Position numbers and translations under genes: made by a program
DNA from: Eutreptiella sp. 'Long Island Sound 2002'
Lineage: Eukaryota > Euglenozoa > Euglenophyceae > Eutreptiales > Eutreptiaceae
NCBI GenBank assembly: GCA_964036045.1
Contig: OZ038382.1
Location: forward strand, 141,682,961-141,746,960
Length of the DNA stretch: 64,000 bases
Reading direction: 5' to 3'
The notes under the pieces: model-generated
What the model saw: the letters and a program-made list of their open reading frames with translations, nothing else
What the model was told of the DNA's origin: nothing
Databases searched by the model: none
Shown: piece after piece, positions 29,629-61,959 of the stretch
Layout: each line of letters begins with the position of its first letter
Position numbering within the stretch: position 1 is the first letter of the stretch

Positions 29629-29660
29629 CAACATTTACGGCGCCGGCACTGTAAATGTTG
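29629..29660. repeat. Locus 1 palindrome, extended 32-bp form
   Basis: Arms CAACATTTACGGCGCC and GGCACTGTAAATGTTG pair except at two positions. It is the largest member of the TTTACGG family. Confidence 0.9.
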
Positions 29661-29994
29661 ACGAATCTCGGTCTAATTTTCCATTTTCTCTACACCGAAA
29701 TGTATCTGCAAAACACAGTCCCAGCAACGTGTTGCACCAATATGTCACACCCTGGGCCTTGTTCAGCTCTGGCGCGATGGTTCATTGGTAAACCTGGAGG
29801 AATAGTGAAAAAGAATCGAAAAAGGGAAGGATAGGTGCAAGGTCTAATTTGCAAAGCAGATCAAGGCTTTTGTCTATTTGTACGACGGCAAAGAAATATT
29901 GATCTCTGAAGGTCATACTGCCTGTCAAAATATCACGTCTTTGTAATTTTCGGTGTAGAGATTCTGCTTCCACTAAAGTCTCTCTACGAAAATG

Positions 29995-30015
29995 TTTACG
30001 GCGCCAGCGCCGAAA
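29995..30015. repeat. Locus 1 palindrome TTTACGGCGC..GCGCCG-AAA
   Basis: Same family. The right arm lacks one T, so the outer pairing is damaged. Confidence 0.85.
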
Positions 30016-30487
30016 AAAATGACGGCTGTCAAAAGCATCAGAATGTGGTGGAAATGTTGTTGCTCACTACAGGGGTGGGGCAGAGATGCCTAGATGGGGG
30101 AAACCTGCACAGTCCAATGATACCACTTCTGCTCAACCAGTAATTCCCCCTTGCTCCTACCCTTGTGGCACACAGTACATCCCTTTACCCCCCCCCTCAC
30201 CCCCAAACCCCCTCTCATCATTTGCTGTGCACCAACGCAAAGATCAACAAAAGAAATCTGTAGAGCACACCAGAAATTTGCAACATATGGATACAAGATA
30301 GGCAATAAGGCCAATGGGCAACAGACCATACGTTTGTCAAAAAAAACACCACAGAATTTACCTGCAGGGAGTTATATGGGACAATTGAGTCCCGATGAAA
30401 AGACATACCTGAGTAATCTGCTATGCTACAACCCTATACCGTTCCTGTTTGAAGGTAATGGCATTTGAAATAAACCCAGACAGGCTG

Positions 30488-30509
30488 TTTACGGCGTTAG
30501 CGCCGTAAA
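30488..30509. repeat. Locus 1 palindrome (9-bp arms, TTAG loop)
   Basis: Perfect arms TTTACGGCG and CGCCGTAAA around TTAG. Confidence 0.95.
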
Positions 30510-30733
30510 ATGAAATGCGGATGCAAAGTTGCAAAAAATATACACAATGTGCATTGCATAAGAAAATGTATGCAAAATAAATGTTAATGTTGGCATGTTG
30601 GGGAAGATACCATTGTCAATTCGAAAAGAATGCACCAGTGAAAAAAGTAGAGCATGTCCATGTTCACCACAATGTATCATGCTGAAAACCGCCTTTCAAG
30701 CAGAGAGGCGGCTTGCCTTAGGGTAAAAAATTG

Positions 30734-30755
30734 TTTACGGCGCCAACGCCGTAAA
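30734..30755. repeat. Locus 1 palindrome (9-bp arms, CCAA loop)
   Basis: Perfect arms TTTACGGCG and CGCCGTAAA around CCAA, 159 bp beyond the end of the locus 1 reading frame. Confidence 0.95.
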
Positions 30756-32456
30756 ATTAACATCAAGGTTATGTATGCAGACATACACAGCATGTGCATT
30801 GTATACAGTCCAGATACAACCAACCACCCCTGAGGAGCCACAAACCCCGTATGTCAGGATAGTAGAACGGTCACAGCAGCAAACAACACCACTGAAACAG
30901 AACTAAAGTTGCCCTAGAACATGTCACTGTTCACCCCAAACAGGGAGTTCGGCTGTGACTCCCCAAGTGCCTCACTGTCGTCTGCGACAGACTGCAGGTC
31001 CGAAGCCCCATCAGTCTTTGGGCACTTGGCCCGGAGACCCACCTGACGGGTCTGCTTTCTCTTGGGGTTACCTGTGGTACCTCCCTTTGCAGGAGTGCTG
31101 CGACCTGCTCTGGCACTCTGCATATCTTGGGCGTCCTGGTCAGCATTTTGCCGACCCGTGTCAGTCCTAGCCTTCTTGGCAAGGGTTGTGTGCTGACTTG
31201 TTGCAAGCAACCCACCGCCGCCAGTAGGGACCGCACCTGTGGTCTCCAGCTGCCTACCTGTTGCATGGGTCTAGGCTTGCTTGTGCCGCTGCTCAAGGGT
31301 AGGGGTAGGGGCAGGGTGTGCAACCTCAGTGTTGCCTGCACCCTTTGCCTCCTGTTTCTCCTTTTTTTCCTGTCCTTCTCGTTCTCCCTATGCTGCTTCA
31401 AGGGCAGCCACCTGTCTCCTCCTCTGTGCGAGGTCCTGAACTGTCTGGTGCTTGGTGTTGGTTGCATCCAGCACAGTACCTTTGACCAGGAGCCCAATCT
31501 CCAAAGTGAGGTCCTGGCCGGCAGTACCCTCCTCAGCAATCTTGGTAATCTCCATGTTCTTGGAGAAATGCTTCACTGCTTCTGGTGGCACAGTGACTAA
31601 CACCTGCCACTAGGGGAAGGCTGTGGCCATTGCACCCACCAAATCCAAAGCGGAGTTCCGCCTTGGATGCGGGCACAAAGCCAGGGGAAAAAAATTTCCT
31701 GTCTCTAGGTGAGGCTTAAGCCCAGCCCGGAGCATGAGCATCGCAATAATGCTCGGTCGAAGACCCAGCTTACTGCCAATATAAGGTGGCAACGATGCCG
31801 CCTTAGGGCTAAGCAGCGCCACAGAGACCATCCCACCCAACCCCGTCAACCTGGGGTTGGGCAGGTAGAGCTGTCCCTCTTCTTGCGACACAAGATACAG
31901 AGTACTGGTCGCCGAAAAATTACAAACCTGGGATGCCCCATCCCCAGTGTTTTGGTCCAGCCAATCCTGAATAACAGTGGCTTTCCCAAACATAATAACT
32001 GGGGTACCCCCATTGGCCACCCTCGGGAGGCCCTCACTGTATGGGATGTCGCCATCCGAGCACTCCACCAGAATACAATGGGTACTCCTAGCGTTGACCA
32101 TCACCATCAAGTCGCTACCAGCCAGGACAACCTTCTTGCGGTCGCCGAATTCGGCTTGATAACTCACAACATCCTTCATGCAGTGAGTGCTACAGATGGC
32201 ACTGCTGCCTGTCCAGAGGGGTGGAGCAAACGATGCCGTAGGGCTGCAAATGCCGGATCTGTCCAGACAGGGCTTTTCAATAGAGAGCCCCGTTCTAGCC
32301 AGTCCGCTTTCCCCGAGCGGAGCTCAGCATAAGCTCACCCTCCAAGTCCGCCACGAGGGATAAATTTATCCGCATGTTTTTCGTAGAGGGAGTTTGCAAG
32401 GTTGCGGCAGAGCTACAAGTTTTCTCTACAACGAACAAAATGTGTGGGTTTAATAA

Positions 32457-32478
32457 TTTACGGTGTTGGCACCGTAGA
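32457..32478. repeat. Locus 1 palindrome inside an intron
   Basis: TTTACGGTG..CACCGTAGA with TTGG loop. The arms have changed together relative to the TTTACGGCG form (CG to TG on one side, CG to CA on the other), so pairing is kept. It lies between coding pieces. Confidence 0.9.
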
Positions 32479-33027
32479 TATGGAAAACGTAACAAATGCA
32501 CAAAATGCACAAATGCACATAGTGTTCTGACATGCCACCAAATCATTTTTTGGATGGCGGATGTTCCAAATGATGTTGCGGCGGCACTTGAGGAACTTGA
32601 GGTAGCCGTTGACCTTGGACACGTTGACCGACATCGATCGATCCACCAACCACCAGGTCAGCTCCTGGATATCCGATGTCGTCAGTCCCGTGGAGTTGTC
32701 ACGGAAACTGGTAGCTCGGATGGGCGCGTAGGCTGCCTCATAGCGGCGGTTGACACGAGTAGCTATGTCCCCAAACGTCCTGTCATGGCTGGCTGCAGCC
32801 ACAACACATGCTATACCATTGTACCTCCAAATGGCATTTGTCCTCTATGGAAAACAAGTAGGAGAAATGAATTTCCAAAAAGGGGGGAAATCTGGCGAAA
32901 CTTGTCTAATTTGGACAAACCTGTTTCGCCAGCATTTCCTTTTGTTGTGCTGGTGACCGCTGTTTCAACTCTTGGTCGGACCCTAGGTCCATGATCTTGA
33001 CCCCCGATGCCAGTATGGCGCTGAACC

Positions 33028-33037
33028 GGGCGTCACC
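33028..33037 (+). repeat. 10-bp target-site duplication, left copy
   Basis: GGGCGTCACC directly left of the terminal AGGGGG. The right copy at 42946-42955 is GGGCATCACC, one CpG-type transition apart. On the minus strand both encode Gly-Asp-Ala in the same frame. Confidence 0.7.
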
Positions 33038-33152
33038 AGGGGGGGGGGGGGATTCTCGGAAATCGGATACCATGCTTAAAACCCCCCCCAGTGCCAAATT
33101 TAAGAAAGGGGGGGGGTTTGGGGGGGGGGGGGTTTAAGGGGGTTTTTCGCTG
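33038..33152 (+). repeat. Left terminal inverted repeat
   Basis: Pairs with 42842-42945. Contains a 13-bp G run, GGAAATCGGATACC, and the inner end GGTTTAAGGGGGTTTTTCGC. Confidence 0.7.
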
Positions 33153-33281
33153 CGCGGGGGTATTGTGTGGGCCTTCCAGTCCTAGTGTGCATGCTACTAC
33201 AAGGGAAAGAGAGGGAGAGCGAGGAGGTGTAGGCGGTGGGGGAGGTATCCATTTGTGACGTGTGTGCGCATGTAGCTCCGC

Positions 33282-33910
33282 CTACTTCTTCCGCCCTGGC
33301 GTCTTCACCGTGCAACGCTTCTTCGCATTTTGCTTGGTAGCGGTGATGGGCCGCTTTTTGCCCTTGCCAGGAACAGCTGTCTTTTGCGGGAGAACTTCCA
33401 CCCCGGAAGAAGAGGTGGAAGAGGAAGAAGATGAGGAAGAAGAGGAGCTCTTGCCATCCTCGGAAATTGCGGAACTCTCGTTACCGTTGGACGAATCGTT
33501 ATCTGCGGAAGACCTAGATTCCACAAAGCTTGCATCCTACTCCGGTTTCCAGTCCCAATCGGAGCATCCAGAGGCTTCACAGAAGGACGCACTCTCAATG
33601 TCCACCCCTTTGCTACTTTCAAAGTGATCTTGGGCTTCATCACCATCGGGATTTTTTTGGCTCGCTCCTTTTTTTTCTCATCGTCCTGCCCAACTACAAC
33701 CCATTCCGTCCGGCAACCCACAATACCCAATTGACATTGTGTTCTAGTGCACACGAGACCTTGTACTCGTGTTTTCCCCACGGCCGTAGGCAGCAATTCA
33801 TCACGCGACATTTGAAAGTGTACCTTAAGAGCTGTAAGGGACGAAAGTCGTATGTAGCATGGAAATGGAATTGCACAAAGGGATGCAAAAACAGCAGCAA
33901 AATGCAACAA
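33282..33910 (-). pseudogene. C-terminal gene remnant inside the TIR element, acidic Ser-rich tail
   Basis: The upper part reads FASLCAIPFPCYIRLSSLTA, HFQMSRDELLPTAVGKTRVQ, then VVVGQDDEKKKERAKK. The frame changes in an A run near 33652-33680 and continues NPDGDEAQDHFESSKGVDIE and CSDWDWKPE, TAG at 33537-33539, then in the same frame DASFVESRSSADNDSSNGNE, a Ser tract and a basic end KTPGRKK at TAG 33282-33284. The first block weakly resembles the C-terminal region of the 736-aa protein of locus 2 (SLPICVPVPDYKVEVRRL..GTMSRTRI), so it may be a relative of that transposase-like gene. The 5' part is missing: the frame runs into the duplicated flank of the satellite. Confidence 0.45.
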
Positions 33911-33973
33911 ATGGCGCCTACTCCGGTCGCACTGCGGCGAGTGTTGACCTCAATGCCTACTACATTTTATCAA

Positions 33974-34178
33974 GGGAACCGCCCCTGCGACCATTTACCT
34001 AGAAAAAACACATGCATACGAGGAAAAGAAAGGGCAATACGACCAACAAAGGGAGAAACCTGCTGGATTTCATCACGGGAACCGCCCCTGCCACCACTTA
34101 CCTAAAAAAAACACATACATACGAGCAAAAGAAGGGACAATACGACCAACAAAGGGAACAAAATCAGAAGTCGTTCCC
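33974..34178 (+). repeat. Direct duplication of a ~103-bp unit bordering the satellite
   Basis: GGGAACCGCCCCTG..AATACGACCAACAAAGGGA occurs at 33974 and again at 34077, about 90% alike. The second copy leads straight into the first satellite unit. Confidence 0.9.
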
Positions 34179-34186
34179 AGGAGAAG

Positions 34187-37100
34187 TGGCCCATAAATGG
34201 GCGAGGTGGCTACATCACCCCTGCCGCCTCGGGGATCCCCACCGCTTCAGAGCGGGGGGCAAAATCAGAAGTGGCCCATATATGGGCAAGGTGGCTACAT
34301 CACCCCTGCCGCCTCGGGGATCCCCTCCGCTTCAGAGCGGGGGGCAAAATCAGAAGTGGCCCATAAATGGGCAAGGTGGCTACATCACCCCTGCCGCCTC
34401 GGGGATCCCCTCCGCTGCACTGCGGCGGGCAGAATCAGAAGTGGTCCATAAATGGGCAAGGTGGCTACATCACCCCTACCGCCTCGGGGATCCCCTCCGC
34501 TTGAGAGCGGGGGGCAGAATCAGAAGTGGCCCACAAATGGGCAAGGTGGCTACGTCACCCCTGCCGCCTCGGGGATCCCCTCCGCTTGAGAGCGGGGGGC
34601 AAAATCAGAAGTGGCCCATAAATGGGCAAGGTGGCTACATCACCCCTGCCGCCTCGGGGATCCCCTCCGCTTCAGTGCGGGGGGCAAAATCAGAAGTGGC
34701 CCACAAATGGGCAAGGTGGCTACATCTCCCCTGCCGCCTCGGGGATCCCCTCCGCTTCAGAGCGGGAGGCAAAATCAGAAGTGGCCCATAAATGGGCAAG
34801 GTGGCTACATCACACCTACCGCCTCGGGGATCCCCTCCGCTTCAGAGCGGGGGGCCGAATCAGAAGTGGCCCATAAATGGGCAAGGTGGCTACATCACCC
34901 CTGCCGCCTCGGGGATCCCCTCCGCTTCAGTGCGGGGGGCAGAATCAGAAGTGGCCCAAAAATGGGCAAGGTGGCTACATCGCCCCTGCCGCCTCGGGGA
35001 TCCCCTCCGCTTCAGAGCAGGAGGCAAAATCAGAAGTGGCCCATAAATGGGCAAGATGGCTACGTCACCCCTACCGCCTCGGGGATCCCCTCCGCTTGAG
35101 AGCGGGGGGCAAAATCAGAAGTGGCCCATAAATGGGCAAGGTGGCTACGTCACCCCTACCGCCTCGGAGATCCCCTCCGCTTCAGAGCGGGGGGCAAAAT
35201 CAGAAGTGGCCCATATATGGGCAAGGTGGCTACATCACCCCTGCCGCCTCGGGGATCCCCTCCACTTGAGAGCGGGGGGCAAAATCAGAAGTGGCCCATA
35301 AATGGGCAAGGTGGCTACGTCACCCCTGCCGCCTCGGGGATCCCCTCCGCTTGAGAGCGGGGGGCAAAATCACAAGTGGCCCATAAATGGGCAAGGTGGC
35401 TACATCACCCCTGCCGCCTCGGGGATCCCCTGCAGTTCAGAGCGGGGGGCAGAATCAGAAGTGGCCCACAAATGGCAAGGCGGCTACATCACCCCTGCCG
35501 CCGCGGGGATCCCCTCCACTTCAGAGCGGGGGGCAAAATCACAAGTGGCCCATAAATGGGCAAGGTGGCTACATCACCCCTGCCGCCTCGGGGATCCCCT
35601 CCGCTGCAGTGCGGGGGGCAAAATCTGAAGTGGCCCATAAATGGGCAAGGTGGCTACGTCACCCCTACCGCCTCAGGGATCCCCTCCGCTTCAGATCGGG
35701 GGGCAAAATCAGAAGTGGCCCATAAATGGGCAAGGTGGCTACATCACCCCTGCCGCCTCGGGGATCCCCTCCGCTTCAGAGCAGGGGGCAAAATCAGAAG
35801 TGGCCCATAAATGAGCAAGGTGGCTACGTCACCCCTACCGCCTCGGGGATCCCCTCCGCTTCAGAGCGGGGAGAAAAATCAGAAGTGGCCCATAAATGGG
35901 CAAGGTGGCTACATCACCCCTGCCGCCTCGGGGATCCCCACCGCTTCGGAGCGGGGGGCCAAATCAGAAGTGGCCCAAAAATGGGCAAGGTGGCTACGTC
36001 ACCCCTACCGCCTCAGGGATCCCCTCCGCTTCAGAGCGGGGGGCAAAATCAGAAGTGGCCCATAAATGGGCAAGGTGGCTACATCACCCCCGCCGCCTCG
36101 GGGATGCCCTCCGCTTCATGGCGGGGGGCAAAATCAGAAGTGGCCCATAAATGGGCAAGTTGGCTACGTCACCCCTATCGCCTCGGGGATCCCCATCCCT
36201 TCAGAGCGGGGGGCAAAATCAGAAGTGGCCCACAAATGGGCAAGGTGGCTACGTCACCCCTTCCGCCTCCGGGATCCCCTCCGCTTGAGAGCGGGGGGCA
36301 AAATCAGAAGTGGCCCATAAATGGGCAAGGTGGCTACGTCACCCCTACCGCCTCGGGGATCCCCTCCGCTTCAGAGCGGGGGGCAAAATCAGAAGTGGCC
36401 CATATATGGGCAAGGTGGCTACATCACCCCTGCCGCCTCGGGGATCCCCTCCACTTGAGAGCGGGGGGCAAAATCAAAAGTGGCCCATAAATGGGCACGG
36501 TGGCTACGTCACCCCTGCCGCCTCGGGGATCCCCTCCGCTCGAGAGCGGGGGGCAAAACACAAGTGGCCCATAAATGGGCAAGGTGGCTACATCACCCCT
36601 GCCGCCTCGGGGATCCCCTCCGCTTCAGAGCGGGGGGCAGAATCAGAAGTGGTCCATAAATGGGCAAGGTGGCTACATCACCCCTGCCGCCTCGGGGATC
36701 CCCTCCGCTTCAGAGCGGGGGGCAAAATCAGAAGTGGCCCATAAATGGGCAAGGTGGCTACGTCACCCCTACCGCCTCAGGGATCCCCTGCGCTTCAGAG
36801 CGGGGGGCAAAATCAGAAGTGGCCCATAAATGGGCAAGGTGGCTACATCACCCCTGCCGCCTCGGGGATCCCCTCCACTTCAGAGCAGGGGGCAAAATCA
36901 GAAGTGGCCCATAAATGAGCAAGGTGGCTACGTCACCCCTACCGCCTCGGGGATCCCCTCCGCTTCAGAGCGGGGGGCAAAATCAGAAGTGGCCCATAAA
37001 TGGCCAAGGTGGCTACATCACCCCTGCCGCCTCGGGGATCCCCACCGCTTCGGAGCGGGGGGCCAAATCAGAAGTGGCCCATAAATGGGCAAGGTGGCTA

Positions 37101-43269: not shown

Positions 43270-43291
43270 TTTACGGCACCGGCACCGTAAA
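43270..43291. repeat. Locus 1 palindrome upstream of the split exon
   Basis: TTTACGG and CCGTAAA arms around CACCGGCA. It belongs to locus 1 although it lies 10 kb from its relatives, because the TIR element separates them. Confidence 0.9.
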
Positions 43292-44042: not shown

Positions 44043-44365
44043 CTGGCCAAAATTTCGGCCAGCTCTTCGAAAAAGTCCAAACACATGGTCCTATTTGACA
44101 GACAGGCCTAAGCTGGCCGAAATTTCGGCCAGGTCCATCGAAACTCCGAATATGATCACTGAAATGGGTACCTAAGACAGTAGACATGAGCAAGGAACAC
44201 AGGAGCAGTGACATTTGAACAGGGTGTGCAACATAATATACTCAATTACAAGCGAATACTTGCCACCTGACGAATCAAAGCAGACTTTTGCAGTGCCTAT
44301 GGGGAAACACAATAATAAAAGGCTGAAGAGGCTGAGGACTGCATGCTGGCCGAAATTTCGGCCAG
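44043..44365. repeat. Three locus 2 palindromes downstream of the four-exon gene
   Basis: CTGGCCGAAATTTCGGCCAG at 44113-44132 and 44346-44365 (perfect) and at 44043-44062 with one substitution. The first two are 70 bp apart. The copy at 44113 is followed by AGGTCCATCGA, a flank shared with the two intronic copies. Confidence 0.97.
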
Positions 44366-44404
44366 ACTTCATGCTGACAGGCAATATAAGCAGCAGGACT
44401 GGCA

Positions 44405-46992
44405 TTAGCGCTTGCGCAAACCAGATGCACGGGGCTTCTTAGCACCTGTGTTAGCAGGCTGCTTGGCAGGGGCTGCAGCACCAGACTTGGCAGTGGCAGA
44501 GTTCTGTGACTGTGTGTTTCCACCCTGGGATGGTGAAAAATGATTCACAAAAGTATTCATACCTTTGCCAGTAGGGGCAACAGTGCCTGAGGAGGAAGCT
44601 GGGGTGGCCTGAGCGCACTGCGTGCCACTGGGTGAGGGGGCAGGGGCACTTTTGGGTTTCTTCTTTGGAGTTTGTGTCTCTGGTTGCGACTCTGCCTCCC
44701 CATCTTGCTCCTCAGGATCCTCATCTACATACCTAACCCCAGAACAATCCACAGGAAAACCTGCCCCCAAGTCGTGGTACACATCCTCCCATGACTTGGG
44801 GTGGCACGTGTCGGCGTTGGTGATACCTGCTCTGATGAGCTGAACAAAGTCATCGGGCACAACAGTCTCCTCACCCAAAAGGGCACACACAACATTACAG
44901 TCCTTGGAAAACCTGGTAGACATCATGCTTGCAAAATACACAGACAGAGTCCCCAGCAAAAACCAGTAGCCTGCCCGTTCTGGGACCGGAACCAGGCTCA
45001 AAAGAAATGAGAATATTTCAACAGGAATCACAGACGACATGGGTCCTTCAGTAAAAGCCACGTAACGGGGAAGCCTGTTATCAAAGGCAGTGGCAGAACA
45101 AATGGAAACCAGATGGGACGTAGAAGTGTACAGCGGGGTCTTGCTTGACAAATTGTAAAGTGCAACATCACACTGATACATATCCTCAGCCACAGTGGCC
45201 TTCAAAGCAGCAACAGTGGCTTTCACATCAGCAGACTCACCCGCAATGAACACAGGCACACCGGACAAAAGCAGCTGCGCAACCAGGTTATGCAAACCAG
45301 CTGTATAGAGGCGGGGCACCTCAATGACACAAGCAGCAAAGGGCAGTGAACTAATGATACTGGGAACAGGGACTCCACAACGCATTGCCATCAGTTCCAC
45401 ACGGCCTGACTGTGCAATGAGTTTGCTTGTGCTTGACTCAACGAGGGACTCCCTAGCACACTGGATACTGACCAGTCCAGTATCAGATTTTTCACAAACA
45501 GGCTTAGCAACAGGCTTCTGCAACAATCCCCGCAACCCCTCATATTTAGGTTCCTTCCAAAGAGGGGCCTTAATTACTGCTGACCACGGGGGCCAGGGGT
45601 TTTCTTCAGTCCAGGTCCAACTGCCATAGGCTACCTTCAGGTGTGATGCAATAGCGCACTGCCTTTTGGCCATCTCGATAGTACCAAGTGTAGCTGCAGA
45701 CAGGTGGTAGCACAGGGTGGGCTCCTATTGTGCATTAATTGAACGACACACAAGCTCGCCGAAATTTCGGCCAGGTCGGTCGATTTATTCGAATACAAAC
45801 CCCTGTTTGACCAAAACATACCTCTGGTGTTGTTCACAAGCCCATTGGTAGCCGCCTCGGGATGAAGAATGTGCCAGGACCACATCTGGGCCTTTTTAAC
45901 ATCTTTTATAATTTTTTTGAGACCAGGTAGGGTACTTTTTGTCCCATCCATGTAACCTACGATCTCGCGAAGTCGGTCAGGCGTGATGCCTTCCACTTCC
46001 TTGAACGTACCCAGTGCGGGATGTAGTCCACGCTTTTCCATGGCTGCCATGGCGTCTATTGAAGGAAGACCCACAAATTTCACCAAACGCCCAACGCCAC
46101 CCCACCGTTTGGCAACAGCACTCTGCACAGGAGAACATGTGGAACACAGAAGCTGGCCGAAATTTCGGCCAGGTCGATCGACAAAACCGAATTAATAAAT
46201 GAAACACACCACAGTGCCTTCCTCGGCAGTAACACCACACTCTTCAAGCATAACAGTAATGTGATGGTACAGGGTGTACTCATTGGCATCCTCATCCTCA
46301 AGCCTATCCAGGAGTAGGGACATTCGCTCCGATGTGGTGGATGCTGAGCCAGCAGTGGTCTGGATTTGATGTAAGCCTGCAAGCCGGCGCCTAGTCCGCA
46401 GGGGGCAGTCCTGTTTGACTTCATAACCACCAAATACCAGGGTCCAATCCGGAGTCTCCATATTTTTCATCTCAAATTCGGTCTTGTGTTTTTGGGCAGC
46501 AGTGTAAACATGCTGACCCCCCAACAGAACCCAGCGAGTGGCTGTGCAACAGGAATATTCGTAACAGCAGGGTCGAAAATTCAGACGCGAAAACGGTACT
46601 ATCAAGAAGAATACCACAACACACATACGAGTGACTTTATAAAAAAGAAGATCCTGGATGTAATCCACAGGCGGGGCTGCCTTCAGATCGTCGTAGCGGC
46701 GTTGCACGCGATCATCCGAAATCCTACGGACCTGCCCAAATTTTCGGTCGTGGTCGATAATAATCTGATCCCACCGAACCTTTATTTTCGTCGTTGACGT
46801 AACCCAGTCGGATAACTTGATGGAGGATGATGAATTTTTCTTTGGTGCGGCCTTAGGCTTCTTTTGAAGTCCCTCTGTGCTCGCCTGGTCCTCTTGAGAC
46901 TGGGATTGCACTTGAGATTGCCCATTGTCTGCTGCAGGCTCACCATCTGGCGAAACAGCCATGTCCTGCGATACCCCTCCAGGCTCAGTCAT
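44405..46992 (-). CDS. Locus 2 four-exon gene of unknown function (761 codons)
   Basis: Exons 46992-46629, 46541-46210, 46122-45822 and 45693-44405 join in frame to TAA. Introns are 87, 87 and 128 bp: donors GTATGT, GTGTGT and GTATGT; acceptors GCACAG, GTGCAG and CTGCAG. The start MTEPGG is chosen at 46992; an in-frame ATG 36 bp upstream is possible. Residues ~10-55 are Gln/Ser/Lys-rich. Residues ~60-105 (RWDQIIIDHDRKFG..RVQRRYDDLKAA) resemble a trihelix or SANT-like DNA-binding pattern. The middle (RLVKFVGLPSIDAM) and the last exon (CVIEVPRLYTAGL; SGVPVFIAGES; GEETVVPDDF) are shared with paralogues at locus 1 and 23-430. The tail is Lys/Pro/Ser/Gln-rich and ends RASGLRKR. It has no in-frame TAG. 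I recognise no enzyme family; it probably acts with the neighbouring transposase-like gene. Confidence 0.75.
45755..45774. repeat. Locus 2 palindrome in intron 3 (one mismatch)
   Basis: CTCGCCGAAATTTCGGCCAG, inside the 128-bp intron 45694-45821. Followed by GTCGGTCGATTTATTCGAAT, paralleling the intron 2 copy. Confidence 0.95.
46153..46172. repeat. Locus 2 palindrome in intron 2
   Basis: Perfect CTGGCCGAAATTTCGGCCAG in the middle of the 87-bp intron 46123-46209. Followed by GTCGATCGACAAAACCGAAT. Confidence 0.97.
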
Positions 46993-47111
46993 AAAATAAA
47001 GGGCTACAAGGCAACATTTCATGAAGGGGAGAGTTCCCAGATAGCAAATAACAAGCACAGATCAACCAAAAAAGGACCAAAACGGACTGCCTGACACGAA
47101 ATTCGGATAAC

Positions 47112-47270
47112 CTGGCCGAAATTTCGGCCAGCACTGCTCTGCATGTCAAACCACTGTGTACAAATACCATTCTGAGAGGCTGGCCGAAATTTCGGCCAGA
47201 ACCTTAAGTCATTTGTGTTCTGGGGGTAGCCATATGACAAAACAACAAGTCTGGCCGAAATTTCGGCCAG
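47112..47270. repeat. Three locus 2 palindromes between the two genes
   Basis: Perfect copies at 47112-47131, 47180-47199 and 47251-47270, spaced 68 and 71 bp, in the 370-bp gap between the stop of the 736-aa gene and the start of the four-exon gene. Confidence 0.98.
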
Positions 47271-47362
47271 AAAAACATGAAACAGCAAATAGACACACCA
47301 AAATCAATGGCAATGCGTGGCAGTACCCATACCACAGTGACAAACACAGCTGCAAACAGAAA

Positions 47363-49573
47363 TCAGTCCCAATCCTGGGTATCCACACCGATGTGTTCCG
47401 CCTCATCTAGGGCTTCAAAGGAGGCAACGCTGTCTGCATCACAATCAATATCTTGGTCACTATCACAAGAGTCGACAGCAATGGAATCATCAAGGGCGGG
47501 GGGGGGTACTGGGCGGGGGGGGTCCGGGGGGGGTACTGGGGGGCCTCTGGCTCGGGGCTTCGGGGGTGGCTTTGGGGGCAAGGCAATTCCACCAGGAGCA
47601 GGAGCAGCAGCAGCAGGCGGTGCACGGTTGGCAGCGCGAATAGAAGCATGTGCAGTACGCAACACCCCTTGCTCGGCAGCAGTGCGGGCAGGTGCATTTG
47701 TCTGTAAAAAATCCTCAACACCCTCAGGAACCCTGGTACACGCAACCAGATTTTGCATTGCATGCAACAGAACCACTTTTAAACTGTCCGTGGTGATTCG
47801 TGTCCTAGACATGGTACCGGGGAACGTCAAATCCTCAACTGCATCCAGTCTTCTCACCTCAACTTTATAGTCTGGAACGGGAACACAAATGGGCAGGCTC
47901 TGTGTATGGGCTGTCAAGATGAATTGTTTAAGATTGGCAGAGAACATTGCCACGGATCTCTCAGTCAGCACACCACGCAAAACTTTCTCTCCGGGTTGGA
48001 CAGGGGGAAGTGTCAGAAATAGATCAGACGACTGTTGGACACTAGTACGGGCAGTGTGACGGCGACAGTGGGCTGAGAATCGACTCAGAAGTGCCTCACC
48101 CAGCTCCTCAGAGTGGATACACCCTAGGGAGGCGGAATGCCACTGACTCCAAAACAAAAGAGCAACAGCGGTGGTTTTCACATACTCCGTGGTTAACTGT
48201 TCCTCGGGCTTTAGGATGTTCAGCATGAGCAGTAGGGACATCTCAAGTGCCTGCTTAGCTACAATACCGGAACCTGCCCCCCGTCCCTCCCAGTTGCACT
48301 CACGAACCAAAGTCCCAATGCTGAAAGCAGCTGGACAGTATGTGTACAGCAAAGCCTTAAGGGCTAATAACATACGCAAACCCTTGCGCTGAATGGGTGT
48401 CAAGTCCCGCTGGCTATTGAGCAGGGAAGTGACGCGCTCATCTAGTCTGCCTCTACTGGACGATGTGGCTAGCATGAGTCCAAGCAACGTCTTCTCCATA
48501 TGGATGACCTTGACCTTGCGAGGGAGGATAGACCCAACCTGAAGGCTGTTCCCCTGCTCCAAAAACTTGATGAACGGCAGGAACGCCCTGTAGATCAATT
48601 CAACGCAATACTTATAGCTATGCCATACTCCGTACACCAAAGGAAAACCCAACAGTAATTGTGGTACATTCCAGGGAACATAAGCAGCACCATAACACAG
48701 CTTAAGTAGGGCAAAGTGTATTTTCATGTCCACAAGCAGCGGAACACAGTGTCTGGTGCGGTGTTCCACACATGACAAATCAACCACGAGTTGCAAAAGC
48801 TCTTTGTGTGTGCCGGAGCGGAGCTCAGACAGGAAAAAGGGTCTCCAGTTGAGGGAACGAACATCCTTTCTGGCAATATCCAAAGGAGCACGAACCCAAA
48901 CTCTCTGAATACCTTGGTTGGCAACATCAATACGATCAAACAATGCTCTATGTGAGCGAAAGATGTTATCAGCAACCTTTGGTACCCTGGCCTCAATTTC
49001 GGCCAGCTCCGGCAGACCCCGGTATGCAGGTAGGGCAGTATTGTGCAAAACAGCAACAGCTGTACAGTTTAGGGTTAAGTCGGGTGAATGGAGATCAGCT
49101 CCCGAACTGTAACGCCTCAGGTTATCAAACCATATACAAACTTGCCTACGGTGCATGGTGTTCCACAAGTTGTGTGCTGCTAGTCCAGCACGATGGTGAA
49201 TGGACTCCTGCTTAGTGTTAAACTGACCAAGGACTCCTACCTTACGGCGTTGGCGGCACGACATAATACCCCAGTTGTAACCAGACCCACAGTTAGAGTA
49301 TGGGAGGGCCATACGGCGCAGCAGGCGGTATAGGGCATGGAACTGTGACAAAAATGTCATGTACCATCGTGGGGGCTTCTTCTCGGTGGCGGCGGCCTTC
49401 AACTGTGTCAGGGAGTGCCGGCTCCTGCGATTCTTCCGCAACAAGAGGCAGAATTGCAAAAGCTTTTGCAGAGTCCCACCACGTAATGCATTTCGCAGCT
49501 GCCCTTTGGCTGTAGTAGCAAAAGCACCTGTAACTGCAGCATGTACAACATTGACAGTAATAGCAGAAGACAT
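47363..49573 (-). CDS. Locus 2 transposase-like protein, 736 aa, single exon
   Basis: Complete frame from ATG 49573 to TGA 47363. The N-terminal ~90 residues are basic. Residues ~140-190 contain RRQVCIWFDNLRRY and LTLNCTAVAVLHNTALPAYR. Residues ~275-340 contain VPLLVDMKIHFALLKLCYGA and GFPLVYGVWHSYKYCVELIY. The sequence FDN followed by TAV, then D..H..K and a G-WH block, recalls by inspection the DUF6589-type transposase-like domain of fungal elements; this needs a profile search. The last ~110 residues are Ala/Pro-rich, then strongly acidic (DSDQDIDCDADS) and end DTQDWD. Five palindromes precede the gene and three follow it. A near-copy of the palindrome lies inside it (48987-49006, ELAEIEAR). 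Probably the DNA-recognising, mobilising protein of locus 2. Confidence 0.65.
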   Translation of the reverse strand: MSSAITVNVVHAAVTGAFATTAKGQLRNALRGGTLQKLLQFCLLLRKNRRSRHSLTQLKAAATEKKPPRWYMTFLSQFHALYRLLRRMALPYSNCGSGYNWGIMSCRQRRKVGVLGQFNTKQESIHHRAGLAAHNLWNTMHRRQVCIWFDNLRRYSSGADLHSPDLTLNCTAVAVLHNTALPAYRGLPELAEIEARVPKVADNIFRSHRALFDRIDVANQGIQRVWVRAPLDIARKDVRSLNWRPFFLSELRSGTHKELLQLVVDLSCVEHRTRHCVPLLVDMKIHFALLKLCYGAAYVPWNVPQLLLGFPLVYGVWHSYKYCVELIYRAFLPFIKFLEQGNSLQVGSILPRKVKVIHMEKTLLGLMLATSSSRGRLDERVTSLLNSQRDLTPIQRKGLRMLLALKALLYTYCPAAFSIGTLVRECNWEGRGAGSGIVAKQALEMSLLLMLNILKPEEQLTTEYVKTTAVALLFWSQWHSASLGCIHSEELGEALLSRFSAHCRRHTARTSVQQSSDLFLTLPPVQPGEKVLRGVLTERSVAMFSANLKQFILTAHTQSLPICVPVPDYKVEVRRLDAVEDLTFPGTMSRTRITTDSLKVVLLHAMQNLVACTRVPEGVEDFLQTNAPARTAAEQGVLRTAHASIRAANRAPPAAAAPAPGGIALPPKPPPKPRARGPPVPPPDPPRPVPPPALDDSIAVDSCDSDQDIDCDADSVASFEALDEAEHIGVDTQDWD
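48987..49006. repeat. Near-palindrome inside the 736-aa coding sequence
   Basis: CTGGCCTCAATTTCGGCCAG differs from the locus 2 palindrome at two adjacent bases. It encodes part of ELAEIEAR on the minus strand. Confidence 0.8.
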
Positions 49574-49644
49574 TAATGCTGAGACAAGAAAACAGTTATG
49601 TAGGAGTGTATGGTGTAATACTCATCAACAACGACAATTGCAAG

Positions 49645-49945
49645 CTGGCCGAAATTTCGGCCAGGTGTGTTCAAAGGGGAAATAATTGCTTACATGTTCA
49701 AAAATAGGAAAAGCTGGCCGAAATTTCGGCCAGCCCACCCAAAAACCAGAATATAAGTGCTTGAACAGTGAACAGACCAAAAAGCTGGCCGAAATTTCGG
49801 CCAGCCCTAAGAAAAATGAAAATAATCATGCCTATTCACCAAGAAACCAAAAAGCTGGCCGAAATTTCGGCCAGAAGGGTCAAAAGCTGCATATACACAT
49901 AGTTGTTTGCAATGTTACCCAAAACCTGGCCGAAATTTCGGCCAG
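49645..49945. promoter_or_regulatory. Regular array of five perfect palindromes upstream of the 736-aa gene
   Basis: CTGGCCGAAATTTCGGCCAG at 49645-49664, 49714-49733, 49785-49804, 49855-49874 and 49926-49945. The pitch is 69, 71, 70 and 71 bp, with A-rich, mutually dissimilar spacers. The array starts 72 bp upstream of the ATG. It may be a protein-binding array for expression control or transposition; that role is inferred. Confidence 0.9.
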
Positions 49946-50186
49946 CTTCAGAAAAACGTAAAATACAACAAACTAGAAGACGGGGGTACACAAGACTAAC
50001 ACATCAACACGTATTTCAACGGGTGTCACACAGCTCTGCCAACAACTTTGGTCACATACGTCAAATAACATACTCAAAGTAGAAATGTAGAATATTGTCA
50101 AATCGCGCGTATACGGGGTCCTAGAGGGTGGGCAACTTGTGACGCCTAAGTACGACACTTGCGAATGCAAATTCGGGACAAATTCC

Positions 50187-50210
50187 CGCGAACTTCGCGC
50201 GAAGTTCGCG
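50187..50210. repeat. Locus 3 palindrome, perfect 24 bp
   Basis: Self-complementary with arm CGCGAACTTCGC. Flanked by GCGAATGCAAATTCGGGAC and GCGAATTCGTCCC. It lies between the last locus 2 palindrome and the end of the locus 3 transposase-like gene. Confidence 0.95.
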
Positions 50211-50302
50211 CGAATTCGTCCCAGATTCGCCCACAAGTATGCACATCTTAATTCACAATAACACGCACGTCCACTTCGCCGGCCATGAAATGTCCAAACG
50301 TA

Positions 50303-52110
50303 CTATGCTCGTTGTTTGCGCTGTTTGCGGCGTTTGAAACGTTGCGTAAGGGTATGTATATAGTTGAGGTCACTAAGGGCCCTCTTGCGGGCCCGCCTAG
50401 CCAATTGTTGTACGGTCACTGGGCCTTGCCCACGCATGGACCTCTTTGCGACGCCCCGCCCCTCCGCACACAGGCTGTCGTCTATGGTGTGGTTGTCAAT
50501 GACAACCTGCACACCTAGCCGCCCACACAGAAGGCTTAGGCCCCCGCTGTTGCGCTACATGCGCTTGAGCCTACGGTGGCTGCCTTCCATGGTGAAGCAT
50601 GAAAATTGGGAGAGATATCTCCATTGGCTGGCAAAAAAATACATGTGGTCAATCCACAAACGTGACCACAACAACTTAGGCCATTCCAAGAGTAAGTGGG
50701 CTTTGCCCATTGCTATGCTACAGTCACGTAACCTTCCTAGGTCTGCCGCGGACAGCCAAGATGTCCGCCATGCATATATACACATCTTGGCAAAGTTGTC
50801 CCACCACTGCCTACAAACATCCCCCCATGGTTTCCCCCCCACCCGCTTGTTGTTCATTCCCCCCTCTTCAAGGCACACGGCAATGAGTGCCTCCGACCTC
50901 CGGGTGCGCATGAGTTGCACAGCCGCGGCACACTCTAGCCTAATGTTTCCCTTTGCGTTGGCGGTGTCATTGCCCTTTGCCATCCTACCCTTTGTTACCG
51001 TCTTGGCTGCCATGCGGGCAACATCTAGGATCGGTTGGAAAAAATTGCGGGCGACGACCGCCGCGAACTTGCCACTGGCAGCTGACACCGCATCCCTCAT
51101 GCCGGAAATACCACAAATAGTTACCCACAGCACCCCGTGCAACCTGTAGTGAAGAATGCGACGTTTGGCTGGGATGTGTCTATATATGGCTCCCATGGGG
51201 AGCACAACCTCCCACTGCCCGTCAATGATGGCTTCCAAGCCAAAATTGGCAAGGCAGTCTTGCCTATTGCGGCCGCAAACCAAACAAACCATGGCTCGTG
51301 GAGCCTCGGCTTTAAAACTTTTACAATGGGCCATTAAAATTTGTGCCTTGCCATCGGCACAGTGGAAGAAAAGTGTTTCCCGGTCGGCACCGGAAGTGTC
51401 TTTGAAGACAACCTTACTAGCATCCCACAACTGTTGGTGGAAGTCAACCTCTTGAGCAGCCGCGTACAAGGTCGACCACTCCTCACTACCCCCCAATAGC
51501 CACCAACTTGCTAGTTGATCGGGGCTACGGGTACCCCCGAGGGTGCAATGCACGAAGGACGCCTCGTGCCGCGACGTGCCGTCCACTGCTAGTGGCATCC
51601 AATGCAGCCTTGGATTGCCCGGTTGTTGGACGTGGGCGGGTTCGACCGGTCGGCAACGGTATAAGTGTTGCAACCGCGCCGGTAACGGGCAAAAGGCTCC
51701 GTATAGCTCCGTGTCATCCCCCATCTTGGCTACAAACCCCTCCGATGCGGGTTGCGCAAGCTGCTGCATGGTGACCCACACGTCCTCCCAAGGTACCCCC
51801 TCCACTAGTTGGGGTGTGAGGTACCGCGCCTCCGTCCTAGACAGGTGCAGCGACCGGATGCGCCACACCGCGGCTACGGTCGTCTCCCACATGGATGGGG
51901 CGGTGAGCAGAGCACCCACCCCTCCCCCCCCCCGTCTACCGGCGTGAGGACAATCTGGCCCGTGTCTGGGAGGTGCTTCACCAGATACTCGGCTCCTAGT
52001 TCCCCTGAGACGACGTCCTGCAATGTCCTCGCGCGGGGGCCCGGTGCTGCCTGGACTTGATATGGGCAAAGGCCTTCTTCCCCTTGTCGCCACTCCCACG
52101 TCCCCTTACA
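50303..52110 (-). pseudogene. Locus 3 transposase-like protein of unknown superfamily (TAG and G-run frameshift)
   Basis: The 5' piece (about 52110-51937) reads GTWEWRQGEEGLCPYQVQAA and GAEYLVKHLPDTGQIVLTPV. A G run at 51926-51935 shifts the frame. The main frame follows: WRIRSLHLSRTEARYLTPQL, VPWEDVWVTMQQLA, LYRCRPVEPAH, VDFHQQLWDASKVVF, a CLVCGRNRQDC cysteine cluster, ILHYRLHGVLWVTICG, DNFAKMCIYAWRTSW, and SQFSCFTMEGSHRRLKRM to TAG 50555-50557. The same frame then continues RNSGGLSLLCGRLGVQVVID and a very basic end (RFKRRKQRKQRA) to TAG 50303-50305. The FSCF.MEGSH..LKR block with an invariant-looking Glu and the following Gly/Leu-rich block look like the end of a transposase core. I cannot place the family. 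Palindromes of locus 3 flank it on both sides. Confidence 0.55.
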
Positions 52111-52277
52111 AAAAACACTGACAATAGGCAAAAGGCAATGCATGTTCTTTATGAAAGTCAAGAAAGTCAGACGCAGTTAGCCCCATTGGCATCCACCACA
52201 CAACAAAAAATTTGTACAACACATTTGTATACACCCCATGTGTTGGGAACCACTATTAAACAAAAATACTGTACAAA

Positions 52278-52370
52278 TTCGCGTGAAGTTCGCGCAAAGT
52301 TCGCAAAAAATCCCAGGACAGTGGTCGGCTGGGTCGGTCGCGCATTTGCAAAGAATCGCGCGAAGTTCGC
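52278..52370. repeat. Two degenerate locus 3 palindromes between the locus 3 genes
   Basis: TTCGCGTGAAGT + TCGCGCAAAGTTCGC at 52278-52304 and ATCGCGCGAAGTTCGC at 52355-52370. Confidence 0.8.
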
Positions 52371-52988
52371 AGCATGTTCAGGCCCCGGTGTAATGTACAA
52401 GGGTTAAAAAGGGCCGTTCGCAGGGTGACACTACTGGCTTGCAGTGCCAATGGAGCTCCCAGAGCCCTGGGCCTCGGCGGGCGTGGGGGGCTTGAAGGCA
52501 GGGTTAGTGGCGGCCTCCACCAGGGCGTCCCCCGGGTAGCGCTTCTCCGCAGCATCATGTGCAGCCTTATACACTGGCACCACCGACTCAAAGGACAGCC
52601 CCTCACCCTGATTCTGGCCGAGCAGCAGGCGCGCGGTGGCGGCCACTGCTGAGAGCTCCCCCTTCATCTTTTCTGCCTGAGGCTTCCAGGCCTGGCTCCC
52701 CGCCATGAGGTACTTCACCCCGTCGCTCACCCCCCCCCCCCGGCCGCTACCCCCGCCCCCCCTCCGCTCGCCCCACCTCCTGCTGCTGCCCCGGCTTGGG
52801 CTTGGGTTTGCGGGCCTGCGCCCGCAGCACGTCCCGCTCCCACTCCGCTGCCGTTGCCCGCTGCTCCGCCTCCTGCGCCCGCTGCTCCGCCTGCTGGAGC
52901 TTGCCCCGCAGGAGGAGAACCTGCCCCTTCGCCGCCACCGCCCGCTTTTGCCACTCGGGCAAGGCCCCCGCCTGCGCCGCCACCCACG

Positions 52989-53652
52989 TGTCCACATGCG
53001 CTGCCGGCGGGGGCTGTGCAGCCGAGGGCTGGCCCCCCGACTTGGCGGGCACTTTGTGGGCCTTGCGGGGGGCCCACCTTGCCCTTAGACCCGCCGCTCT
53101 TGGAGCTCCGCATGGAGGAGGCATCGTCCCCCTCCCCGTCCCCCTCCTCCGCATCCACGTCCACCACTCCCCCCACCTCCCCCAAATGCCGCCGCTGCTC
53201 CTCCTTTGCCCGGGTGAGCATTTGGAGCCACACGTAGCTCATGTGCTCCTCCACCCGGTCCCCCCATCCCCTCACCCCCGTCACCGCCAACGCCGCCAAC
53301 TGCCTCAGCTGCCCACCCACGTGTCCACATGCGCTGCCGGCGGGGGTTGTGCAGCCGAGGGCTGTCCCCCGACTTGGCGGGCACTTTGTGGGCCTTGCGG
53401 GGCCGGCCCACCTTGCCCTTGGACCCGCCGCTCTTGGAGCTCCGCATGGAGGAGGCATCGTCCCCCTCCCCGTCCCCCTCCTCCGCATCCACGTCCACCA
53501 CTCCCCCCACCTCCCCCAAATGCCGCCGCTGCTCCTCCTTTGCCCGGGTGAGCATTTGGAGCCACGCGTAGCTCATGTGCTCCTCCACCCGGTCCCCCCA
53601 TCCCCTCACCCCCGTCACCGCCAACGCCGCCAACCGCCTCAGCTGCCCCGCC
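52989..53652. repeat. Tandem duplication of ~332 bp within the AT-hook gene
   Basis: GTGTCCACATGCGCTGCCGG starts at 52989 and again at 53321. Both copies continue through the AT-hook, the acidic patch and the GWGDRVEEHMSY block. They differ in C-run lengths, which changes frame. Confidence 0.9.
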
Positions 53653-54239
53653 GGCATCCCCGCCCTACCCTGCACGCAACAATCCATCCTCCAATGCCCT
53701 CCACGCAGCCGGTATGCGTAGAGGGCAATAACCCTCTCCCCCTCCTTCCAACCTCCCCCGGGGTTGGGGTGGGTGATGGCGCAGGGGAAGGATATTTTGA
53801 GGGGCGGCTCCTGCGCCCCATCCTGCGTCTCCACCTCGATCTCCCACGTCGTCGCCACGAACTCCTCCCTTGCCCGCTTCCGTCCCGGGAGGTCCCGCTT
53901 CCATGCGAAAGAGGGCTGGGTCCGCAGCATGGAGAGGGTGGTGATGGGGGGGCGGTCCGACGGGTAGGCCGTGGCACCGGTTCCTGCCACCGGGTTTGCG
54001 ACAACCACGTCGGGGCCCGGGGTTGGAGGGGGGGCCGCGGGAACGGTCGGCCGGATGTCAGCGGGCGGGGCACCGGCGTAACTCGACGGCATGTCAAAGG
54101 ACACGTGGCCGGCCGTGCCCGTGCCCGTGCCCGGGCCCGTGCCCGGCAGTGCAGGAGCACTTGTGTGCCCGGCCGGGCGGAATCGCTTCTGGGCGGCCAC
54201 GGCCGCTCGGAGGTCGGGCAGCGAGCAGTCCCATGCCTC

Positions 54240-54391
54240 CTCAGAAGGATATGAAATGGAAAATGAATGAAATGTAAATATTCACGTGAAATTCGCGCGA
54301 ACTTCGCGACAAATTCCCGAATGAGCATATTGGAATGCGAAGCACACAGTTGCGAACATCGCGCGAATACGGGGTAGAAAACAATGCATAC
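54240..54391. repeat. Intron of the AT-hook gene with locus 3 palindromes
   Basis: AATTCGCGCGAACTTCGCG at 54290-54308 and CGAACATCGCGCGAAT at 54353-54368, inside an intron with donor GTATGC and acceptor CTGAG. Confidence 0.7.
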
Positions 54392-61951: not shown

Positions 61952-61959
61952 GTCCCGGG

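Follow-up and report, generated by a model that had tools for sequence, protein, structure and literature searches.

Where the same palindrome recurs throughout the non-coding gaps of a group of genes, the question arises whether the genes belong to a mobile element that carries a DNA recognition site of its own, and which protein might read that site. To our knowledge, the means by which selfish DNA can evade silencing and yet not release every other element are understood in molecular detail mainly for the VANDAL transposons of Arabidopsis. In this study, we revisited a window of 64,000 nucleotides from Eutreptiella sp. 'Long Island Sound 2002', in which an earlier note had described three adjacent loci, each with a palindrome of its own, as one family of multigene mobile elements. 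The palindromes are confirmed, in numbers that far exceed chance. Locus 2 is indeed a multigene mobile element and locus 3 is a damaged copy of another; the loci nevertheless fall into at least two kinds of element, which differ in their proteins, ends and target duplications, and do not make up a single family.

Results

The three loci do not form a simple row, as locus 2, a complete element (X2), is nested within the element of locus 3 (Y1), whose left end lies at 43366 (Table 1). When this left end was aligned to that of the relative L057, the alignment scored 94, against 58 for the best of 200 shuffles. Locus 3 had been thought to end at 54368; its second gene matches the relative up to 56246, partly in inverted orientation, and Y1 runs past 56.2 kb, its right end not having been found. 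The element of locus 1 is damaged and interrupted by a 9.9-kb insertion, and the assignment of its end is weak, since CTTAGG occurs 16 times in the window. Its count of six sites was right (up to three mismatches; 0.02 expected by chance), but the spacer has four bases (TTTACGGCGNNNNCGCCGTAAA) and not two, and a search for the motif with a two-base spacer gave none. Loci 1 and 2 had further been taken to encode paralogous proteins, which the comparisons do not bear out. Between their proteins there was no tblastn match at E 0.01, tblastx of locus 1 to X2 and L055 gave a best E of 0.037, and, in sets of 500 shuffles, 9 and 38 scored at least as high as the pairwise comparisons of locus 1 with gene A of locus 2, and 425 and 379 at least as high as those with gene A of its relative. 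These comparisons are not significant and do not support locus 1 as a gene A paralogue.

Table 1. Positions of the elements, genes and palindromes of loci 1 to 3 in the window
Feature	Position	Strand	Basis
Left part of locus 1, with damaged reading frames and a candidate end, CTTAGGG, at 29498	29498..33040	-	Five of six TTTACGGCGNNNNCGCCGTAAA sites (29634, 29995, 30488, 30734, 32457)
9.9-kb insertion in locus 1, with minisatellite; outside the palindrome system	33041..42944		34-nt inverted ends, 79%; 85-bp x 100 array
Locus 1, right remnant; sixth TTTACGGCGNNNNCGCCGTAAA site at 43270	42945..43365	-	Site search
Y1 (locus 3), left end, starts TGTACCC; severed from remainder by X2 insertion	43366..43610	+	Alignment to left end of relative L057, X2 skipped
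X2 target duplication TACGA, 5 bp, left copy	43611..43615		Flank alignment of copies
X2 (locus 2), complete DNA transposon, 6535 bp, two genes, both minus	43616..50150	-	Inverted ends and 5-bp target duplication; six other copies with same ends
X2 left terminal inverted repeat CTTAGGCGTCACAAGTTGCCCACCC, 25 bp, starts CTTAGG	43616..43640	+	Exact inverted match to right end
Palindrome pair (44043, 44113), downstream of gene A	44043..44132		Search at up to 3 mismatches
Palindrome just downstream of gene A	44346..44365		Search at up to 3 mismatches
X2 gene A, four exons (46629-46992, 46210-46541, 45822-46122, 44405-45693), 761 aa; candidate specificity protein	44405..46992	-	GT-AG splice model
Palindrome in gene A intron 3	45755..45774		Site search and splice model
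Palindrome in gene A intron 2	46153..46172		Site search and splice model
Three palindromes (47112, 47180, 47251), about 70 bp apart, between genes A and B	47112..47270		Site search
X2 gene B, putative transposase of 736 aa	47363..49573	-	Homologues and alignment
Palindrome-like site, 2 mismatches, inside gene B coding part	48987..49006		Site search
Five palindromes (49645, 49714, 49785, 49855, 49926), about 70 bp apart, upstream of gene B	49645..49945		Site search
X2 right terminal inverted repeat	50126..50150	-	Exact inverted match to left end over 25 bp
X2 target duplication TACGA, 5 bp, right copy	50151..50155		Flank alignment of copies
Rest of Y1, rearranged	50156..56246	-	tblastn to L057 gene 2
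Y1 palindrome array TTCGCGCGAA, 11-bp period	50183..50216		Unit search
Y1 gene 1, 516-aa ORF; candidate transposase (inference)	50558..52105	-	Homologues
Y1 palindrome units (52278, 52289) between Y1 genes	52278..52298		Unit search
Y1 palindrome unit	52355..52371		Site and unit searches
Y1 gene-2 exon segment	53478..53951	-	tblastn E 1.3e-17
Y1 gene-2 exon segment	54281..54673	-	tblastn E 1.5e-17
Y1 palindrome unit, at position of apparent intron array in relative	54290..54308		Site and unit searches
Y1 palindrome unit, 1 mismatch	54358..54367		Unit search
Y1 gene-2 segment with oxygenase-like HTD...HHG motif, inverted relative to rest	54803..56246	+	tblastn 39-47% identity, E 2e-81; motif alignment

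X2 is a transposon and is mobile. Its six other copies, which include one split in two and one short derivative, have the same ends with 0-2 mismatches over 26 nt, and the 5-bp target duplications match in six of the seven copies and in four of five bases in the seventh; a 3-bp target duplication was rejected after alignment of the flanks of the seven copies. Proteins of 422 aa that are 97% identical to 55% of gene A occur in clusters of 134 and 175 members. Gene B has 21 homologues, including one cluster with 267 members, and its invariant residues in an alignment of 14 sequences include D282, H318, E360 and E425. No recognised domain was found in gene A, gene B or the Y proteins: gene A matched no Pfam family up to E 5, gene B had DUF1496 as its sole, sub-threshold match, the locus-3 ORF matched only COX6B, again below threshold, and P0028 matched nothing in Pfam up to E 0.1. 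Profile and sequence searches of PDB gave nothing credible, for gene B included, and the predicted structures of gene B and P0028 had a mean pLDDT of 37. Neither a relative nor the palindrome was found in viral contigs, and no protein relative in bacterial and archaeal contigs; the palindrome has a single match in each of 11 bacterial stretches, which we take as chance.

Searching the window for sites with up to three mismatches from CTGGCCGAAATTTCGGCCAG gave 14, all at 44043-49945, with 0.01 expected by chance. The 13 sites counted previously are non-coding, as had been said, and two of them are intronic, but a fourteenth (48987) falls within coding sequence of the 736-aa ORF. The sites avoid coding DNA, as 13 of 14 are non-coding though 69% of the element is coding (binomial p = 2.6e-6). 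In the 2.28-Gb genome there are 12,533 palindromes of the locus-2 type at up to two mismatches, and one with the reversed control. Gene-independent scatter, which would have spoken against a link to the element, was not seen among the 50 listed of these 12,533: they form six clusters, each bounded by X2 ends, and all lie in six X2-type elements. L017, the diverged short derivative of X2, has 30 sites (up to three mismatches) in 3.9 kb, with most of the coding part giving no alignment, and is identical to X2 at 111/120 within sites and 732/925 outside them. Among four near-identical X2 copies, 14 of 260 columns are variable in palindromes and 89 of 1780 in other non-coding DNA (p 0.76), so that the palindromes vary like the rest and there is no sign of selection on them after insertion. 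CpG is depleted in the non-coding DNA of X2 (observed/expected 0.46) and TpG is raised (1.46), as CpG methylation would give; the depletion is not special to this part, the CpG ratio being 0.52 in X2 coding DNA, 0.58 in the left flank and 0.80-0.84 to the right of X2.

The related family B4, whose gene B is about 45% identical to that of X2, has the same layout and the same spacing of about 70 bp, but carries the palindrome CTGGGCGAAATTTCGCCCAG instead of CTGGCCGAAATTTCGGCCAG. All 32 B4 loci have sites. C5/G16 is found in 94 of 99 X2 sites (eight stretches from seven elements) and in none of 139 B4 sites, a count from which L053-L055 (same places as L023-L025) and L058 (a third variant) had been left out. 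B4 sites are G5/C16 in 85 cases and otherwise partly decayed, with 27 G/T, 20 A/C, 4 A/T, 2 G/G and 1 T/C; as the strands of the sites are mixed, G/T and A/C are one change viewed from either side. In the direction of the gene (30 loci), 86 sites lie upstream of the matched gene B part, none inside it and 43 downstream (71 to the left and 58 to the right if minus-strand loci are not turned). Sites fall within intron 3 of gene A in X2 and, in L055, within the corresponding gap of the B4 gene. Between X2 and B4, position and spacing (69-71 bp) are thus kept while both half-sites have changed symmetrically. L058, a third and decayed relative, has the half-sites CTGGACGAAA.

Locus 3 is not of X2's kind. 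About five CGCGAACTTCGC-type sites had been reported there, and such sites are present (up to one mismatch, at 50187-50210, 52283, 52359 and 54296), but they form parts of TTCGCGCGAA units that repeat with a period of 11 bp. Of these units, eight (up to one mismatch) lie at 50152-54400. The palindromes had also been said to stop sharply at the locus boundary; one further CGCGAACTTCGC-type site lies outside locus 3, at 59368, and one TTCGCGCGAA unit lies elsewhere in the window, at 19709. The relative of locus 3 carries TTCGTACGAA with the same 11-bp period; at up to one mismatch, locus 3 has eight CG-core and no TA-core units against 41 TA-core and six CG-core units in the relative (five of the six count as both), a comparison between a single locus 3 and two fully read copies of the relative. 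The Y kind repeats the symmetric palindrome change between relatives that is seen in X, and both comparisons support the earlier proposal in that related families carry palindromes altered alike in the two half-sites. Gene 1 of Y1 has 56 homologues, including clusters of 128, 203, 248 and 122 members. In the relative Y28, five of six copies examined have TGT..ACA ends, each with a matching 2-bp target duplication; in the sixth, no right end was found. The HTD...HHG pattern is common to the window and to L057 gene 2, which has no Pfam or PDB match.

Discussion

We lean towards the explanation that a dimeric protein made by the element binds the palindromes of its own family and has co-diverged with them, most likely in the service of anti-silencing or transactivation. 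Every family would carry many copies of its own palindrome in non-coding DNA, each a putative binding site of a symmetric, element-encoded protein, and protein and site would have diverged together so that each family acts only on itself. That the families each spread their own palindrome, with a matched change in the half-sites, is as expected if each element's protein recognises only its own kind. The binder would most likely be gene A in X, an intron-bearing gene whose last exon is its most diverged part, and gene 2 in Y, although this choice is a guess, as neither the domain searches nor the structure models point to a particular protein. Its job would most likely be to keep the chromatin of the element open, as VANC does, because sites are found not only near the ends, the expected place of transposase assembly, but also between genes and in introns.

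Many sites are indeed found near the ends, where those of a transposase would be expected, and this counts against the explanation that we prefer. A transposase or accessory transposition protein might use the palindromes to join the ends and pick out family members, with the intron and intergenic sites as by-products of tandem duplication. The site clusters near the X2 and B4 ends would fit such a role, as would L017, which keeps and multiplies sites without most of the genes, and the ends too differ between families (CTTAGGCGTCACAAGTT against CTTAGGCCACGCTAACT). However, subterminal arrays alone would be sufficient for it, and X2, B4 and Y28 have intergenic and intron sites far from the ends, so that we regard this role as unlikely, though by no means far-fetched. 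The palindromes could also be promoter or enhancer elements for host factors, in keeping with the sites upstream of genes, the family differences being subfamily drift in which tandem duplication carried a symmetric change along. This seems improbable, as host factors would be expected to have one shared site, whereas the two related X families consistently use two variants and the Y kind shows the same pattern again.

Hairpins in RNA or DNA, serving as processing sites or as replication or recombination signals, would also explain perfect inverted repeats, and a symmetric change preserves base pairing no less than the symmetry of a dimer site. Against this, the sites of X2 and B4 (10+10 bp, no spacer) are loopless and would be expected to fold poorly, sites flank genes on either side, the window has no Rfam match at the gathering score, and the 11-bp period of Y suits protein binding on one face of the helix. 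We therefore consider hairpins highly improbable.

The earlier note knew of no described family with such a layout, but the VANDAL transposons of Arabidopsis are one. VANDALs are Mutator-like elements with a MuDR transposase and a target duplication of about 9 bp. As described, these multigene DNA transposons encode anti-silencing (VANC) proteins and carry tandem copies of a short motif in their non-coding DNA, upstream regions and introns among it; the motif goes with the family and differs between related families, the VANC21 motifs being short (YAGTATTAY) and arrayed in the same orientation (PMC5735166, PMC10398659). In the elements studied here a motif is likewise repeated in non-coding DNA and introns and differs between related families, but the motifs are palindromic and the target duplications are 5 or 2 bp. 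Since no MuDR-type transposase domain was found in X2, and its target duplication is 5 bp, membership among the VANDALs fails. En/Spm (CACTA), with its TNPA, encodes two proteins and contains a short internal binding motif in many copies; its 12-bp, non-palindromic, subterminal TNPA sites bring the ends together and select family members for movement, and CACTA elements have CACTA ends and a 2-3-bp duplication. X2 also combines two proteins with many short internal motifs, but has CTTAGG ends and a 5-bp duplication. A 5-bp target duplication is also that of the hAT5 group (PMC12730594), but no hAT transposase domain was detected here and the ends are again CTTAGG.

Y28 shares TGT..ACA ends and 2-bp target duplications with PlavakaA, although no Plavaka or other transposase domain was detected here and the passages on Plavaka cited from PMC12730594 do not mention family-specific palindromes. 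TET-bearing Plavaka are named PlavakaB in that source. Gene 2 of Y28 has an oxygenase-like HxD...H pattern and so could modify DNA bases; neither Pfam nor PDB gave a match to TET/JBP, and any link to the TET/JBP-bearing fungal transposons is at the level of this motif only.

Two more kinds of element seem to have reached a VANDAL-like solution, with palindromic sites. A wider reading, which we put forward tentatively and with considerable doubt, is that family-private palindrome recognition arose, within a single non-VANDAL genome, in two or more unrelated kinds of DNA transposon, that one symmetric base pair per half-site would switch specificity (position 5 C, G or A in X; a CG to TA core in Y) with position and helical spacing kept, and that a Y-borne DNA-modifying oxygenase at the tagged DNA might bring about self-targeted demethylation. 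Because two families differ by a single symmetric base change, it can be tested directly, with a few proteins and 20-bp probes, whether protein and site have evolved together, and the families offer natural candidate protein-site pairs for reading the recognition code. The 74 best-scored copies of one Y relative show 98-100% identity, and 65 of these copies lack an internal stop, so that this relative appears to be young and may still be active.

X2 and the related family B4

X2, the transposon at locus 2, and B4, a family related to it, are alike in layout; what sets them apart is one position of the palindrome half-site, changed symmetrically. X2 is bounded by an exact inverted repeat, whose end, CTTAGGCGTCACAAGTTGCCCACCC, was fixed by comparison with six other copies (L016, L017, L018 with L019, L020, L021 and L022). 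The window copy and five of the six others have a matching 5-bp target duplication (TACGA in the window; TATGA, TACTA, CCCCA, ACGAT and TGTTA in the others), and the remaining copy has AGAAG/ACAAG, with one difference; the inverted ends and the 5-bp duplication thus identify X2 as a DNA transposon. Two protein clusters, with 134 and 175 members, represent gene A over 55 % of its length, and one with 267 represents gene B; these sizes show that copy number is high. Long aligned blocks of other copies are 94–99 % identical to X2; a 319-bp block of L019 falls below these at 77 %, and L017, a 3.9-kb derivative with most of the gene content gone and 30 palindrome sites (≤3 mismatches), is about 75–80 % identical.

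The earlier note had counted 13 palindromes at locus 2; the observation holds, with the number amended to 14 sites with ≤3 mismatches, all within 44043–49945 (chance 0.01). Thirteen of these are non-coding, although coding sequence makes up 69 % of the element (P=2.6e-6), and gene A has sites on its downstream side and within two introns, with others in the gap between genes A and B and upstream of gene B. Neighbouring sites in the arrays are 68–71 bp apart; the palindrome is constant (one of ten aligned units differs, by one base) and the intervening DNA has largely diverged. The window belongs to a genome of 2.28 Gb in 2205 contigs, judged to be eukaryotic by its size and its spliced genes; this genome has the palindrome at 12,533 places with ≤2 mismatches, a tally that may take in exact B4 sites, which differ by two bases, as against one place for the reversed pattern. 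Fifty of the 12,533 were listed, all exact and on contig 1, in six clusters, and every cluster is an element of X2 type whose ends can be recognised; for these 50 sites, found only inside such elements, the proposed tie between palindrome and element stands.

B4 was reached through P0013, a protein 46 % identical to gene B of X2, with a genome search (73 of 7859 candidates scored, 77 matches) from which the 30 best matches were taken as loci of 4.6–4.8 kb; a palindrome scan of these gave CTGGGCGAAATTTCGCCCAG. Sites were then counted with positions 5 and 16 ignored and ≤2 mismatches elsewhere, in eight X2 stretches from seven elements and in the 30 best B4 loci plus L059 and L060. X2 has 99 sites, present in 8/8 stretches (94 C5/G16, three C/C, two G/G), and B4 has 139, present in 32/32 loci, none of them C5/G16 and 85 G5/C16 (the remainder being 27 G/T, 20 A/C, four A/T, two G/G and one T/C). 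With zero mismatch elsewhere, C/G is found in 62/62 X2 sites and G/C in 16/19 B4 sites. In gene direction, 86 B4 sites lie upstream of the matched gene B part (30/30 loci), 43 downstream (25/30 loci) and none inside it in the 30 loci, and site spacing peaks at 69–70 bp in B4 and 70–71 bp in X2. L055, a whole B4 element with ends CTTAGGCCACGCTAACT and target bases matching at 4/5, has a gene A 33–48 % identical to that of X2 and a palindrome between the segments matching exons 3 and 4. It is from these counts and the common layout that the single symmetric change follows, and the expectation that relatives would be accompanied by a palindrome of their own is borne out for B4. In L058, a decayed third relative with 40 % identity in gene B, five sites were found at ≤5 mismatches, two with an exact CTGGACGAAA half-site, which is only suggestive of a third variant. 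The comparison covers two element kinds, X with three families and Y with two, in the best-scoring copies of one genome.

Locus 3 and its relative Y28

The CGCGAACTTCGC-type sites reported at locus 3 (element Y1) are present and form parts of TTCGCGCGAA units, which recur every 11 bp. P0028, the Y28 protein, shares 58 % identity with the locus-3 ORF; the best 74 of 8580 candidates, those scored, are 98–100 % identical and 65 of the 74 lack an internal stop, and the element may therefore still be active. Copies L056 and L057 were read and the ends of five others examined; the ends are TGTACCC...GGGTACA, and both, with a matching 2-bp target duplication, were found in five of six copies (L056 being left out, its right side cut short), the right end of the sixth being looked for and not found. 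The Y28 palindrome is TTCGTACGAA, with the same 11-bp period. At ≤1 mismatch, locus 3 has eight CG-core units and no TA-core unit, and TA-core units number 16 in L056 and 25 in L057, with four and two CG-core matches, respectively, five of these six doubling as TA-core.

The loci had been described as lying side by side, with locus 3 ending at 54368; neither description could be kept. With X2 skipped, the locus-3 left end aligns with L057 as far as the palindromes (score 94 versus a shuffle best of 58, n=200), which indicates that X2 jumped into the locus-3 element, and matches to gene 2 of L057 show that locus 3 extends beyond 56.2 kb, partly inverted. Gene 2 of locus 3 and of L057 share a PHTDV...HHGLP pattern that we take to be reminiscent of 2-oxoglutarate oxygenases, a reading to which Pfam and PDB searches gave no backing. 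The locus-3 ORF ends after LKRM (50555–50560), where relatives run on MLRNSGG..., and P0025, representing a cluster of 128 members, has the same terminal residue.

Proposed role of the palindromes

The palindromes are family-specific and symmetric, lie almost only in non-coding DNA and keep their spacing, all of which suggests a dimeric protein that would recognise the element, and we infer that it is element-encoded because the palindromes co-diverge with the element's own genes. Such a dimer would bind the palindromes of its own family, and binding would most likely lead to anti-silencing of the element. The palindromes might instead serve synapsis of the ends; the subterminal clusters and L017 are compatible with both roles, but sites also occur within introns and gene–gene gaps, which fits end synapsis less well. 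These internal sites, together with a CpG in each family's consensus palindrome, make anti-silencing the better fit. X2 non-coding DNA has a deficit of CpG (observed/expected 0.46; TpG 1.46), but the ratio is only slightly greater in X2 coding DNA (0.52) and in the left flank (0.58), and the deficit is therefore no more than a hint of CpG methylation by the host. Between X2 and L017, sites are more strongly conserved than the DNA around them (identical at 111/120 versus 732/925 positions). In four near-identical X2 copies, variation in the palindromes is as great as in the rest of the non-coding DNA; this would be expected of copies that decay once inserted, with selection confined to the active lineage.

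Excerpts of two reports (PMC5735166, PMC10398659) describe Arabidopsis VANDAL transposons with short motifs repeated across non-coding DNA and introns, bound in gel shifts by the anti-silencing protein VANC21, and different motifs for VANC6; as far as these go, motifs repeated in this way and differing between families are a logic common to VANDALs and to X and Y. Membership tests of X and Y as VANDALs came out against. The Y28 ends match the PlavakaA lineage as presented in part of PMC12730594; a transposase domain was looked for in Y28 and none was found. No report of family-specific palindromic motifs in transposons was evident from titles in a limited literature search, and we do not claim that they are unpublished.

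Locus 1 and other features

The six TTTACGGCGNNNNCGCCGTAAA sites noted at locus 1 were recovered in the window at ≤3 mismatches (chance 0.02).

Features of the window and the evidence for them
Feature	Position	Strand	Description
X2	43616-50150		6535-bp DNA transposon; shared ends and target duplication
Gene A of X2			Four GT-AG exons, 761 aa
Gene B of X2			736 aa
Locus 3 left end	43366		Alignment to L057 left end
L057 gene-2 match	54803-56246	+	
L057 gene-2 match	54281-54673	-	
L057 gene-2 match	53478-53951	-	
Tandem repeat	52980-53648		334-bp unit, two copies, 97 % matching; region of locus-3 second gene
Insertion	33041-42944		Inverted ends of G/C-run type
Minisatellite in insertion	34182-42682		85-bp, about 100 units
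Array	421-796		4.4 copies, 85-bp unit of the kind in the insertion
Minisatellites	7022-11619		47/94-bp, CACTGCC...GGCAGTG type, spanning 4.6 kb
Long ORF	58643-62149	-	Sub-threshold reverse-transcriptase match; probably a non-LTR retrotransposon
Kinase ORF	17444-18298	-	Protein-kinase domain; likely a host gene fragment

An additional palindrome set, GTTATCGCG/CGCGATAAC, stands in L056 (5177–7746) on both sides of a 711-aa ORF (5380–7515) with weak sub-threshold matches to PhyH and 2OG-oxygenase, and this stretch is possibly a third palindrome-tagged element.
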